A stretch of 64,000 nucleotides of DNA from Planctomycetia bacterium (GTDB taxonomy: Bacteria; Planctomycetota; Phycisphaerae; Phycisphaerales; SM1A02): positions 1 to 64,000 of the forward strand of contig SYAC01000048.1 of NCBI GenBank assembly GCA_005787685.1, given 5' to 3'. The notes beneath the pieces were generated by a model. It did not search any database, was not told where the DNA came from, and was given only the letters and a program-made list of their open reading frames with translations. A program made the position numbers and the translations under genes. Shown here piece after piece: positions 50,841 to 55,639 of this stretch (positions within the stretch are counted from its first letter, which is position 1; each line of letters starts with the position of its first letter).

Positions 50841-52841
50841 ATGCCGCGTAATATTCCAGTTGGCAACGGCGACATGTTGGTCGCCTTTGACGATCTGTAT
50901 CGCATTCGCGATTTGTATTGGCCGCATGTTGGCCAGCCCAACCACACCTGCGGACACTTGCAACGATTTGGCGTTTGGGCCGACGGGCAATTTGCCTGGA
51001 TGGATAGCCCAGGTTGGTCGCGCAACTTTTCCTACAAGCACAACACATTGCTGACCGAGGTGCGCTTGCGCAACGAACGGCTTGGCTTGGAGTTGGTGTG
51101 CCACGATGCGGTGGATTATTGGAGCCCAGTCTATTTTCGCAAAGTGATCGTCACGGATCTGTGGAATCGTCCGCGGGATGTGCGCGTGTTTTTTCATGCG
51201 GATTTAAGCGTGAATGAAAGTCCCGTGGGTGACACCGTTGCCTTTGATCCGCAAACTGGCGGCTTGATCCACTACAAAAGTGATTTCTACTTTCTCTTCA
51301 ACGGTAGCCATCCGGCTGGTATTGGCGTGACCACCTACGCCACGGGCGCCAAACGAATTGGTGAGGCGGAAGGAACTTGGCGCGACGCCGAGGATGGCAT
51401 GTTGAGCCGCAACAGCATCGCGCAAGGCAGCGTGGACAGCGCGGTTGGATTTCAACTTACGCTTGCGCCACAAGGCAGCGAAACATGTGTGTATTGGATT
51501 GCGGCGGGCAAAAGTTACGATGAAGTGCATCAACTCAACCAGAAGGTGTGCGATAAAACTCCGCAGCGCATGCTGGATCGCACTGAGGCCTATTGGCGTT
51601 TGTGGTCGCAACAGGAATTTTCTGGAGTGGATCCGCTCCCCAAACATTTACAACAATTACAGACGCGCAGCTTGCTGATCGCGCGCACGCAAATTGATAA
51701 TGACGGCGCAATTATTGCCGCCAACGATTACGACATCACCCATTTCGCCGGCGACACCTATTCCTATATGTGGCCGCGCGATGGAGCGTTGGTTGCGCAA
51801 TCGCTGGTGCTTGCCGGTCAAAGCGAACTGAGCCGAAACTTTTTCCGCTTCTGCGAGCGCGTGCGCCACCCCGACGGATATTTCCACCACAAGTACAACC
51901 CCAATGGAACGGTGGCTTCAAGTTGGCATCCTTGGCTCACGGAAAAACCATCGCTGCTGCCCATTCAACAAGATGAAACCGCGCTTATTCCATGGGCTTT
52001 GCGCCAACATTTCGTCAAGTTTCGCGATGTTGAATTCATCAAGTCGCTGTACAACCCGCTGATTGTTGACACCGCGAACTGGATGATTTCCTACCGCGAC
52101 CACCATGGGTTGCCGCTGCCAAGTTGGGACCTGTGGGAGGAGCGACGCGGCGTGCACTTATTCACCGTGTGCGCCACCATTGGCGGCTTGCTTGCGGCAA
52201 GTCAATTTGCGCAGGACATGGGCGCATTTGATCGCGCGACTGATTTCAGCGAGGCAGCGGATCGCATGCGATTGGCCATGTTGAAACACATGTGGGATCC
52301 AGAGCGCCGCTTATTCGCGCGCACGGCAATTGCCGCCGAGGATGGCTCATATCGTTTGGACTTCACGCTGGACGCGTCGGCCTACGCTCTGTTTGCGTTT
52401 GATGTGCTGCCCGCACATGACGCGCGTGTATGCGACCATATGCGCGCCATCCGCGATCGACTGTGGGTACGCACCGAAATTGGCGGCATAGCGCGCTATG
52501 AGCGTGATCCGTACCAGCGAGCTGAGCACATGGACTTTGTCAATGTTCCAGGTAATCCGTGGGTGATTTGCACGCTGTGGTTCGCGCAGTGGCTGATTGC
52601 CAAGGCGTCAACCATCGCCGAACTTGAAGAGGCGCTTCCTTATCTTGAATGGACCAATTGGCGCGCCTCATCCAGTGGCGTGTTGGCGGAGCAATACCAT
52701 CCCTATACTGGGGCGCAAATTTCCGTGAGCCCACTGACCTGGAGTCACGCCACGCTCATCACTACATCCATGCAATTCCGATTGCGATTTGCGGAATTAT
52801 CCGCGGCGCAAGCCTTGACCCCGAAAAGCGCCGGCACATAA
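50841..52841 (+). CDS. glycoside hydrolase family 15 (glucoamylase-like)
   Basis: A 666-residue cytosolic enzyme of the GH15 glucoamylase/trehalase class. It has an N-terminal beta-sandwich domain (about 1-260; starts RNIPVGNGDMLVAFDD) and a catalytic alpha6/alpha6 barrel with YMWPRDGALVAQSL, LWEERRGVHLFT (candidate general acid Glu) and LAEQYHPYTGAQISV-SPLTWSHA near the end, where the general base Glu lies. It probably releases glucose from alpha-glucans such as glycogen, or splits trehalose. No signal peptide. It follows fabF by 27 nt. Confidence 0.9.
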   Translation: MPRNIPVGNGDMLVAFDDLYRIRDLYWPHVGQPNHTCGHLQRFGVWADGQFAWMDSPGWSRNFSYKHNTLLTEVRLRNERLGLELVCHDAVDYWSPVYFRKVIVTDLWNRPRDVRVFFHADLSVNESPVGDTVAFDPQTGGLIHYKSDFYFLFNGSHPAGIGVTTYATGAKRIGEAEGTWRDAEDGMLSRNSIAQGSVDSAVGFQLTLAPQGSETCVYWIAAGKSYDEVHQLNQKVCDKTPQRMLDRTEAYWRLWSQQEFSGVDPLPKHLQQLQTRSLLIARTQIDNDGAIIAANDYDITHFAGDTYSYMWPRDGALVAQSLVLAGQSELSRNFFRFCERVRHPDGYFHHKYNPNGTVASSWHPWLTEKPSLLPIQQDETALIPWALRQHFVKFRDVEFIKSLYNPLIVDTANWMISYRDHHGLPLPSWDLWEERRGVHLFTVCATIGGLLAASQFAQDMGAFDRATDFSEAADRMRLAMLKHMWDPERRLFARTAIAAEDGSYRLDFTLDASAYALFAFDVLPAHDARVCDHMRAIRDRLWVRTEIGGIARYERDPYQRAEHMDFVNVPGNPWVICTLWFAQWLIAKASTIAELEEALPYLEWTNWRASSSGVLAEQYHPYTGAQISVSPLTWSHATLITTSMQFRLRFAELSAAQALTPKSAGT

Positions 52842-52947: not shown

Positions 52948-54048
52948 GTGAAATCATCCTCTCTTGAAGTTGCAGAGATTCTTGAATCTTCCAGTCGCGC
53001 CATTGCCACTTGGACGATTGATCAACAATATCGAGATGACGACACCATGGAAGCGCGTTACGGTTCATCTGGTCGGCGCATGTGGAATCAAGAAGTGGTG
53101 ACACGACTGGCGTACCTCACGGAGGCGGTGGCTCTGAACTACGAGCAAATATTGATTGACAACGCGCTGTGGGCCAAGACTGCGTTCACTGCGCGTGAAT
53201 TAAATTTGGATGATCTGTACAAAAATTTAGATTGCATGAAGAGCGTCTTGGTTGAGCAACTTCCAAAATCAATTTCGAATGTCACCACTCCAATAATCAC
53301 CAAGGCGCTGGAATGCCTGCTGCAAAATTCGACTCATTTAGAAAATCCAATTTCGCATGCCGGAGCTTCTTCTGATTTTGCGCGCATGTACCTCATGCAT
53401 TTGCTGAAGCGGGATCAAATGGAGGCGGAGCGCCTGATTACGGAACTGACCAAAAATGGACTGACTTTTTCGCAAATTTGCGAGGGAGTGCTTGTGCCCG
53501 CCATGGCTGAGATTGGATATCTCTGGCAGATACAAGAAGCCAGTATTGCGGATGAACATTATTGCACGAATGCCACGCATCGCATTTTAGAGGGGCTTCG
53601 GGGCAAGACACCCCGCAAAGAGCTGAACGGATATCTCATGGTTTCCGCTTCCGTTTGCGGTGACATGCATGATCTTGGAATTAAAATTATGTCCGCCATT
53701 TATGAAATGCAAGGCTGGACCGTGGAGTGCCTGGGATCAAATACGCCCACGCAAGAAATCGTGAACAGCGTTGCCCCGCAAATCTATCGCGGCGGCGCCA
53801 ACCTTTTGGCGCTCAGCGCATCAACCAGTTTGCGCATTCGGGCCGTTCAATCTGTCATCGCATGCGTGCGTGCCACGGACGCTGGAAAGAACATACCTAT
53901 TTTAGTGGGTGGACCCCCATTCCAAAATAGGAATGATCTTTGGCGACTTGTGGGCGCGAGCGCCCAATCATCCTCCGCGTCGGCATCGCTTGAAACAGCG
54001 CTTGCGCTCGTGGCGCACTCCAATCACGCAAATCGTCGTGCCACATAG
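52948..54048 (+). CDS. cobalamin-binding, CarH-like photosensor domain protein
   Basis: A 366-residue protein, GTG start. Residues 1-140 are a helical domain of unknown function without MerR features. Residues about 140-215 match the helical cap of B12-dependent sensors: Trp193 followed after nine residues by Glu203-His204, the W-x9-EH signature of the CarH photoreceptor. Residues 225-350 are a Rossmann B12-binding domain with Asp239-x-His241-x-x-Gly244 (CGDMHDLGIK), whose His ligates cobalt. It could sense light through adenosylcobalamin, or simply bind B12. Output is unclear, as no DNA-binding or enzymatic domain is present. It stands alone between GH15 and phoH. Confidence 0.85.
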   Translation: MKSSSLEVAEILESSSRAIATWTIDQQYRDDDTMEARYGSSGRRMWNQEVVTRLAYLTEAVALNYEQILIDNALWAKTAFTARELNLDDLYKNLDCMKSVLVEQLPKSISNVTTPIITKALECLLQNSTHLENPISHAGASSDFARMYLMHLLKRDQMEAERLITELTKNGLTFSQICEGVLVPAMAEIGYLWQIQEASIADEHYCTNATHRILEGLRGKTPRKELNGYLMVSASVCGDMHDLGIKIMSAIYEMQGWTVECLGSNTPTQEIVNSVAPQIYRGGANLLALSASTSLRIRAVQSVIACVRATDAGKNIPILVGGPPFQNRNDLWRLVGASAQSSSASASLETALALVAHSNHANRRAT

Positions 54049-54091: not shown

Positions 54092-55639
54092 TCACAACAT
54101 ATCCGCGGCCAAGCTTGCCAATTCACTACGCTCGGTGCGACTCAGTGTGACATGTCCCGCGATGCGTTGGCCCTTCATGCGCTCAATCAAGTGCGATAGA
54201 CCGTTGCTTGCCGCGTCCAGATATGGATTGTCTATTTGTCCAATATCGCCAGCGAGCACAATCTTAGTGCCTTCACCAACTCGACTGACAATAGTCTTCA
54301 CTTCGTGCGGAGAAAGATTTTGGGCCTCATCCACAATAATAAATTGATGCGGAATGCTGCGACCGCGGATGTACGTGAGCGGTTCCATGACCAATTTACC
54401 GCCAGCCACAAGTTGATCCATGCGCTGCTCGGCGGTTTTACTGTCAGCTTCGCTACTGCTGCCGCCGCGCGTTGAAAGCAAGTAAGACACATTGTCAAAC
54501 ACGGGCTGCATCCACAACGCGAGTTTTTCATCTTTATCGCCTGGTAAAAAGCCAATGTCGCGGCCCATGGGCATGATTGGTCTGGCCACCAGCAATTTGT
54601 CAAAGCGCTCCTCACGCAGCACTTTGTGCATGCCCGCGGCAATCGCGAGCAATGTTTTTCCGGTGCCCGCCGCGCCAATCAGCGAGACCAGGCGAACTTC
54701 ATCGTCCAGCAATAAATCCATGGCCATGGTTTGCTGCACATTGCGCGCAAGAATTCCGTAAATGGGTTTGCGGGGACCGGTGACTGGAATTAAGTGGCCC
54801 GTATCGGCAAGCACACGTCCCAAGCCAGTGTGACTTTCGTCGGCGTCGTCTTGCAACACCACAAATTGATTAGCCACCAAGTCGTGGGCTTTCAATTCGC
54901 CGCCTTCAATTGTGCGGAAGATTAAACCCTCCAATTGCTCAATGCTCAATTGACGCTCTTGATACAACTCATCAATGGTGGCGCTGGGACAACTCAACAT
55001 GGCGTAACCGCCATAGAGCCAGTCAGCGTCAACGCGATCGGCCTCGAAGTCCTCACTTGGAATATCCAGCGCGTCGCACTTCACGCGGGCGTTGATGTCC
55101 TTGGAGATAAAAATAGTCCGCAGACCGCTGGCGTGTAGCCGATGCGCCACGCCAAGAATTTTATTGTCGGCCACATCGAGATCTAGGGCGAACGGGGTCT
55201 TCACATCGCAACGCTCAATGCGAATGGAGCCGCCCTGCTCATTCCACACCACGCCTTCAAAGAGTCGCCCAATGGAACGCATCTTGTCCAAGCGGCGAAT
55301 CACGCTGCGGGCATTCCGCCCCGTTTCATCATTGTTTTTCTTGAAATGATCAAGCTCCTCAATCACTTGAAGCGGAATGACAACCTCGTGTTCCTCAAAC
55401 TTAAAGAGCGCGTTGGGATTATGCAGCAACACATTTGTGTCAACCACAAAGTGCTTGCGCAGATCGGCGGCAGCGCCAGACCCCACTTGAATTTTTGTTG
55501 TCGGCGCAACCACGGATTCCGCGGATGGCTTGGATTTGTCGGACTTGGTTTCAGACGGCGTCCGCGATGCGGAAGACGAAGAATTCTTCAAGAGGCAAAG
55601 TCCCTTCATAAAATGCGAATTGGAAACACCACAAGTCAA
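54092..55639 (-). CDS. PhoH family ATPase with N-terminal PIN domain
   Basis: A 515-residue protein of the PhoH2 type. It has a disordered Ser/Lys start (to about 55), then a PIN ribonuclease domain (VVDTNVLLHNPNALF at about 65-80, with acidic residues along KNNDETGRNARSVIRRLD), and a PhoH ATPase with Walker A GAAGTGKTLLA and Walker B FIIVDEAQNLS. PhoH2 proteins unwind and cleave RNA and are often linked to toxin-antitoxin systems, but no antitoxin gene is adjacent. An internal Met at residue 11 is an alternative start. It is convergent with the B12 gene. Confidence 0.93.
   Translation of the reverse strand: MTCGVSNSHFMKGLCLLKNSSSSASRTPSETKSDKSKPSAESVVAPTTKIQVGSGAAADLRKHFVVDTNVLLHNPNALFKFEEHEVVIPLQVIEELDHFKKNNDETGRNARSVIRRLDKMRSIGRLFEGVVWNEQGGSIRIERCDVKTPFALDLDVADNKILGVAHRLHASGLRTIFISKDINARVKCDALDIPSEDFEADRVDADWLYGGYAMLSCPSATIDELYQERQLSIEQLEGLIFRTIEGGELKAHDLVANQFVVLQDDADESHTGLGRVLADTGHLIPVTGPRKPIYGILARNVQQTMAMDLLLDDEVRLVSLIGAAGTGKTLLAIAAGMHKVLREERFDKLLVARPIMPMGRDIGFLPGDKDEKLALWMQPVFDNVSYLLSTRGGSSSEADSKTAEQRMDQLVAGGKLVMEPLTYIRGRSIPHQFIIVDEAQNLSPHEVKTIVSRVGEGTKIVLAGDIGQIDNPYLDAASNGLSHLIERMKGQRIAGHVTLSRTERSELASLAADML

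Follow-up and report, generated by a model that had tools for sequence, protein, structure and literature searches.

Which kind of light sensor, and with what output, is encoded by a gene that joins the adenosylcobalamin (AdoCbl) signature of CarH photoreceptors to an N-terminal region other than MerR? The question is raised by one locus of a Planctomycetia bacterium (GenBank assembly GCA_005787685.1; 2.37 Mb, 91% complete), situated in the window, i.e., the whole stretch of 64,000 nucleotides analyzed here (SYAC01000048.1, positions 1 to 64,000, forward strand; contig C42 in our numbering). The encoded protein is probably a stand-alone photocobilin-type photoreceptor with permuted domains, an N-terminal globin preceding a C-terminal CarH-like AdoCbl domain. 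The gene and its AdoCbl-binding part comprise:

52948..54048, + strand: photocobilin-type protein gene (bilin-type globin plus AdoCbl-binding domain), 366 aa, GTG start, stop codon at 54046-54048
53389..53592, + strand: B12-binding_2 four-helix bundle (PF02607), residues 148-215, Pfam E 6.6e-12
53524..53559, + strand: W193-x9-E203-H204, adenosyl-pocket/dimer-interface motif, the Trp followed by Q194; from sequence and 71-row conservation
53641..53946, + strand: B12-binding Rossmann domain (PF02310), residues 232-333, Pfam E 7.5e-12 and conservation

The GTG start is kept in same-genus relatives.

The AdoCbl-binding domain

The W-x9-EH motif occurs once in the window protein (Trp193, Glu203, His204), and the Rossmann domain holds D239-x-H241-x-x-G (DMHDLG from residue 239) and G263xxxP267. 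Since W-x9-EH arises in 173 of 20,000 shuffles of the protein (0.9%), the match alone is mild evidence; it is the conservation of these residues that argues strongly for a light-sensor signature. In an alignment of 71 sequences (67 taken from 66 of the order's genomes and four plasmid-borne; left out were G291 and G313, where the gene is split over contigs, and eight of the 12 plasmid matches), W193, E203, H241, and G263 are invariant, and H204 and P267 are each present in 70 sequences. Position 194 is occupied by His in 54/71 and by Gln in 10/71, the window protein belonging to the latter group. The combination of W-x9-EH with DxHxxG, on which the original prediction was built, is thus real.

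By itself, W-x9-EH does not set photoreceptors apart. In two further genomes of the order, the MerR-type proteins L036 (frame at 1113, - strand) and L040 (frame at 1242, + strand) have W-x9-EH, but carry GDPYALA and GDAGALS, respectively, where DxHxxG is expected, and so miss the cobalt-ligand histidine; judged by these sequences, they are probably B12-independent CarA-like regulators. Hence, the motif has to be judged jointly with the cobalt ligand. In the frames scanned, W-x9-EH is missing from the three remaining B12-binding proteins of the window genome (L001, L002, and L004). L004 (1309-2154, - strand, of G000:C25) is a second B12-domain protein of this genome, without the cobalt-ligand His, and proteins similar to it are present in same-genus relatives. 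A further protein with the AdoCbl signature, L035 (frame at 843, + strand, 426 aa), has at its N-terminus a long helical stretch which, by eye, resembles a globin.

The signature can be placed on solved photocobilins. The phmmer alignment with SasPcob (Saccharothrix syringae, stand-alone; PDB 8J2W, dark, and 8J2X, light) pairs residue 152 of the query with chain position 14 and is gap-free up to Trp193; Trp193, Glu203, His204, and His241 correspond to chain positions 55, 65, 66, and 102, numbered W61, E71, H72, and H108 (a constant offset of 6) in PMC10979010, whose crystal structure shows these residues around the adenosyl group or, in the case of the His, as the lower ligand of cobalt. By homology, therefore, Trp193 and His204 would lie at the adenosyl group of 8J2W, and not away from the upper face of the cobalamin. 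This geometry is taken from homology since the AlphaFold model of the AdoCbl domain alone has a mean pLDDT of 47.6.

A corrinoid protein that carries methyl groups for a methyltransferase system rather than sensing light would share such a domain, and the NCBIfam models MtgC and MtbC do match (E 2.8e-15 and 3.3e-11). However, the scores fall far under the curated cut-offs (56.4 vs. 370 bits and 43.1 vs. 350 bits), photocobilins and CtMerR rank above corrinoid proteins in the profile search, Trp193 and Glu203 are invariant, and no corrinoid methyltransferase was noticed among the neighbor genes examined, which leaves this reading very improbable.

The N-terminal domain

The original prediction described the first 140 residues as a helical domain different from MerR. 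The absence of MerR is borne out, as Pfam yields no MerR or HTH match in the window protein; the domain itself turns out to be a known one:

52948..53337, + strand: photoglobin/phycobiliprotein-type globin domain, residues 1-130; from profile matches and model superposition

The N-terminal sequence alone retrieves nothing usable from the PDB, and from Pfam only a sub-threshold DUF5844 match. A profile of the N-terminal domain from 35 relatives (A2) matches the globins of SasPcob (8j2w/8j2x, E 6.5e-8) and AbPcob (8j2y, E 0.005), after which the PDB yields designed helical proteins (E of 0.01 or higher) and allophycocyanin (0.97). With the full-length profile of 35 family sequences (A3), the photocobilins 8j2w (9e-44) and 8j2y (4.6e-40) come out ahead of all CarH and enzyme chains in the PDB, and 8j2w is aligned in two blocks of swapped order, query residues 148-349 with chain positions 10-202, and 52-104 with 267-319.

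Structure prediction of the N-terminal residues, suggested along with the original prediction, gave a model of the bilin-type globin fold and not a novel one. AlphaFold models were built on six to seven close sequences; for the whole protein (six sequences) the mean pLDDT is 54.4, with ten-residue blocks at 65-87 within residues 1-130. Residues 1-126 of the model superimpose on allophycocyanin (Z 17.0; 125 residues, 2.2 Å), SasPcob (Z 16.8; 121 residues, 2.8 Å), smURFP (Z 16.7), and AbPcob (Z 15.5), these Z scores exceeding the tool's chance level for helical models; in Foldseek, the best E-value for the globin fold (0.039, at probability 1.00) falls short of significance. No phytochrome PHY domain is found in the genome. 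With a photoglobin-type globin at the N-terminus, the architecture is therefore a known one, that of photocobilins.

Comparison with known photoreceptors

SasPcob shares with the window protein the AdoCbl domain with its W, EH, and His residues, the bilin-type globin, the globin pocket Trp and Arg, and the lack of a fused enzyme; according to PMC11796333, Gln follows the motif Trp in SasPcob as well. The differences are the swapped domain order, with the globin first in the window protein; the replacement of Asp270 by Glu49, with W46 beside it; and a planctomycete host with no canonical heme oxygenase found. The globin-CBD order is also mentioned for photocobilins in PMC10979010. AbDPcob, a photocobilin-diguanylate cyclase from Acidimicrobiaceae (PDB 8J2Y), has the same two sensory domains with a fused GGDEF domain, whereas the window protein is separate; in some distant relatives a separate GGDEF gene adjoins.

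CarH/LitR proteins (TtCarH, CtMerR) have in common with the window protein the light-sensing AdoCbl domain, W-x9-EH, and the lower His ligand, but carry a MerR DNA-binding domain in the place of the globin, and His132 of TtCarH, the bis-His ligand, corresponds to Gln194. Phycobiliproteins, BBAG globins, and photoglobins share the globin fold of the N-terminus, the first of these binding bilins in cyanobacterial light antennae, and Schneider et al. (2022) reportedly deal with this group; the phycobiliprotein-type attachment motif CxRD/CxQD is replaced here by W-x-x-E. Photoglobins are described as globin-B12 fusions in PMC10151467.

The photocobilin kind is thus already known, in print since 2022-2024. 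New relative to the literature examined are the planctomycete clade, Trp at the bilin-attachment position, and the lack of a matching heme oxygenase; for planctomycetes with small genomes and kinship to lake bacteria, our literature search found no report of AdoCbl-based light sensing.

Bilin binding and heme oxygenase

If the architecture is that of photocobilins, does the globin still hold a bilin? Four positions bear on this question:

53083..53085, + strand: Trp46, in place of the bilin-attachment Cys; W in 63/71, C in 5/71
53092..53094, + strand: Glu49, at the position of SasPcob Asp270 (biliverdin contact) and of the AbPcob His; E in 29/71, D in 12/71
53170..53172, + strand: Trp75, at SasPcob Trp296/AbPcob Trp289 (biliverdin pocket); 71/71
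53194..53196, + strand: Arg83, at AbPcob Arg297 (biliverdin pocket); 65/71

Trp75, Phe80, Arg83, and Leu85 align with AbPcob Trp289, Leu294, Arg297, and Val299, all named as pocket residues in PMC10979010. The assignment of Glu49 to Asp270 requires a four-residue gap-free extension of the SasPcob alignment, at the same offset of 6; the AbPcob alignment spans this position and pairs Glu49 with His, in line with the replacement of Asp270 by His described for AbPcob in the same text (PMC10979010). That substitution goes with a weakened bilin site, the biliverdin occupancy in AbDPcob being ~20% (PMC10979010).

Cys-x-x-Asp is seen at the attachment site in Azospirillum, Skermanella, and two Phycisphaerales copies, and 63/71 sequences have Trp-x-x-(Glu, Asp, Asn, His, Ala, or others) instead. 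The 63 sequences with Trp46 are set apart by a branch of 100/99 support (the root is unplaced, and one Leu row lies on their side), and the Asp270-equivalent position is highly variable inside this clade. As SasPcob and AbPcob likewise have no attachment Cys (PMC10979010), its loss alone decides nothing.

No canonical heme oxygenase (PF01126) is found in the window genome (91% complete), which need not mean that biliverdin is absent, and Trp75 and Arg83 are kept. Among 181 genomes of the family, seven have both the gene and heme oxygenase, 55 the gene only, 39 the enzyme only, and 80 neither; hence, the enzyme is present in 7/62 genomes with the gene vs. 39/119 without it (Fisher p 0.002), a difference shaped by relatedness, since it vanishes at the genus level (9/16 vs. 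15/29, p 1.0). The order-wide sample of 301 genomes shows no association either way (24/68 vs. 103/233, p 0.21). The two genes thus show none of the co-inheritance expected if biliverdin were an obligate cofactor. An acid at residue 49 is seen in 32/43 sequences from genomes without heme oxygenase and in 6/24 from genomes with it, opposite to the expectation under bilin use; as this pattern follows the tree, it is not counted as evidence.

Two readings have to be weighed here. A dual-chromophore photocobilin, binding biliverdin too and responding to both red and green light like SasPcob, would agree with the globin fold of the bilin-binding kind (biliverdin-binding smURFP included), with the conserved Trp75 and Arg83, and with the acid retained at the Asp270 position; given the Trp at the attachment position, the variability at the Asp270 position in the Trp46 clade, and the heme oxygenase data above, we consider it conceivable but doubtful. 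Bilin use by the window protein is accordingly doubtful; a red-light input through a bilin is an uncertain possibility. In another reading, plausible though short of probable, a large clade of Phycisphaerales-type planctomycetes would have made the photocobilin a light sensor that depends on B12 alone, its globin fold being kept as a lid or output surface that holds no bilin. This reading is suggested by the near-invariant Trp at the attachment position, the drifted bilin-contact Asp, and the lack of canonical heme oxygenase in most gene-bearing genomes of the family.

Distribution and selection

Full- or near full-length relatives (E <= 1e-20) are present in 68/301 genomes of the order and 62/181 of the family; database matches show 68-69% identity over the gene, one of them from deep Lake Baikal. 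Beyond the phylum, matches come from 12 of 72,556 plasmid records: ten, from Azospirillum and Skermanella, extend over 80% or more of the query, and two have weaker coverage (Ilyobacter, 77%; Nonomuraea, 49%). A scan of viral contigs for further relatives found none. One apparent long fusion (L025, 851 aa) was rejected since its open frame merely runs back through an out-of-frame gatA; two others, L026 and L054, were rejected likewise, from the sequence or the neighbor pattern.

The gene is fast-evolving. Its identity to same-genus genomes is 67-69%, vs. 94-98% for the flanks (50841-52841 and 54092-55639), and dN/dS between the window copy and six same-genus copies is 0.19-0.25 (synonymous sites near saturation), vs. 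0.046-0.061 for the neighboring GH15 gene and 0.025-0.039 for PhoH. These rates, the absence of the gene from 3/16 genomes of the genus examined, and the deviation of the window copy at otherwise common positions (Gln194, Cys237, Ser264) might point to a decaying gene with the motif retained by descent; however, the frame is open throughout, every motif residue is intact, and dN/dS is far under 1, so that decay is hardly credible. Judged by its substitution pattern, the gene is under purifying selection and functional.

Gene neighborhood

The gene immediately upstream is:

50841..52841, + strand: glycoside hydrolase family 15 (GH15) gene (PF00723)

GH15 is directly upstream on the same strand in 23/45 loci examined; it is syntenic in many relatives, has a purely putative role in a light-sensor system, and is not an obvious output in the window genome. 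Genes for FabF, PhoH, BaxI-like, NIF3, and GatA proteins (named from our reading of the sequences) also recur in the 45 loci. We read these recurrent neighbors as inherited synteny more than function. Rfam gives no match, and hence no upstream riboswitch, between 50 and 56 kb of the window, and promoter and terminator scans are at chance level. Two SQS_PSY genes stand side by side; they are more probably hopanoid than carotenoid genes, and a carotenoid link is not claimed.

The neighborhood comparison in relatives proposed with the original prediction provides the best hints to outputs, all from distant relatives. A GGDEF gene is directly downstream in 3/49 loci (Ilyobacter, L087, and L106); a histidine kinase is downstream and a response regulator upstream in 2/49, both Azospirillum; and an ECF sigma factor is 0.2-1.2 kb away in 5/49 (L100, L105, L107, L113, and L115), in genomes of four different families. 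On the Ilyobacter polytropus plasmid pILYOP01 the homologue (L079, 8914-9855) overlaps the GGDEF gene; Ilyobacter is an anaerobe, where an oxygen-dependent heme oxygenase would be unexpected. The window genome has four GGDEF domains elsewhere, and a PF01923 cobalamin adenosyltransferase, the supply of AdoCbl.

The ECF loci, with fasciclin near all five and an RskA anti-sigma factor near three, would suit a CarH-type B12 photoreceptor that regulates genes via a contacted DNA-binding protein or an ECF sigma/anti-sigma pair. We regard this as unlikely for the window protein: no ECF/RskA pair is found at its locus, the larger fasciclin gene of the genome has no homologue of the pair within ~6 kb, and the association is limited to five of 49 loci in two parts of the tree.

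Proposed mechanism

As a stand-alone photocobilin-type photoreceptor, the protein would work as follows. In the dark, AdoCbl would be bound base-off with His241 as the lower ligand, and the adenosyl group would pack on Trp193 and be linked through Glu203-His204 to the partner subunit, AdoCbl thus holding a head-to-tail dimer. Green light would break the Co-C bond and the adenosyl group would depart; the Glu203-His204 helix would then move and the dimer open. The light state is probably aquo- or hydroxocobalamin, as in SasPcob, because Gln194 occupies the place of the bis-His histidine of TtCarH.

The altered dimer or globin surface may control a partner protein by contact, most plausibly a signaling enzyme (e.g., a diguanylate cyclase) or else a regulator whose target is a sigma factor. 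In PMC10979010, photocobilins are reported to influence a cyclase both when fused to it and, in vitro, when added to it and acting by contact. By analogy, the light-controlled protein-protein switch originally proposed for this gene is plausible.

Implications

With this protein, light sensing by AdoCbl would extend to planctomycetes that have small genomes and are related to lake bacteria. If the B12-only reading is true, a bilin antenna globin would have been re-used as a plain signaling module. A dead bilin site would provide a natural test of the role of the globin without pigment, and would bear on the origin of phycobiliproteins from signaling globins and on the design of B12-only green-light switches.
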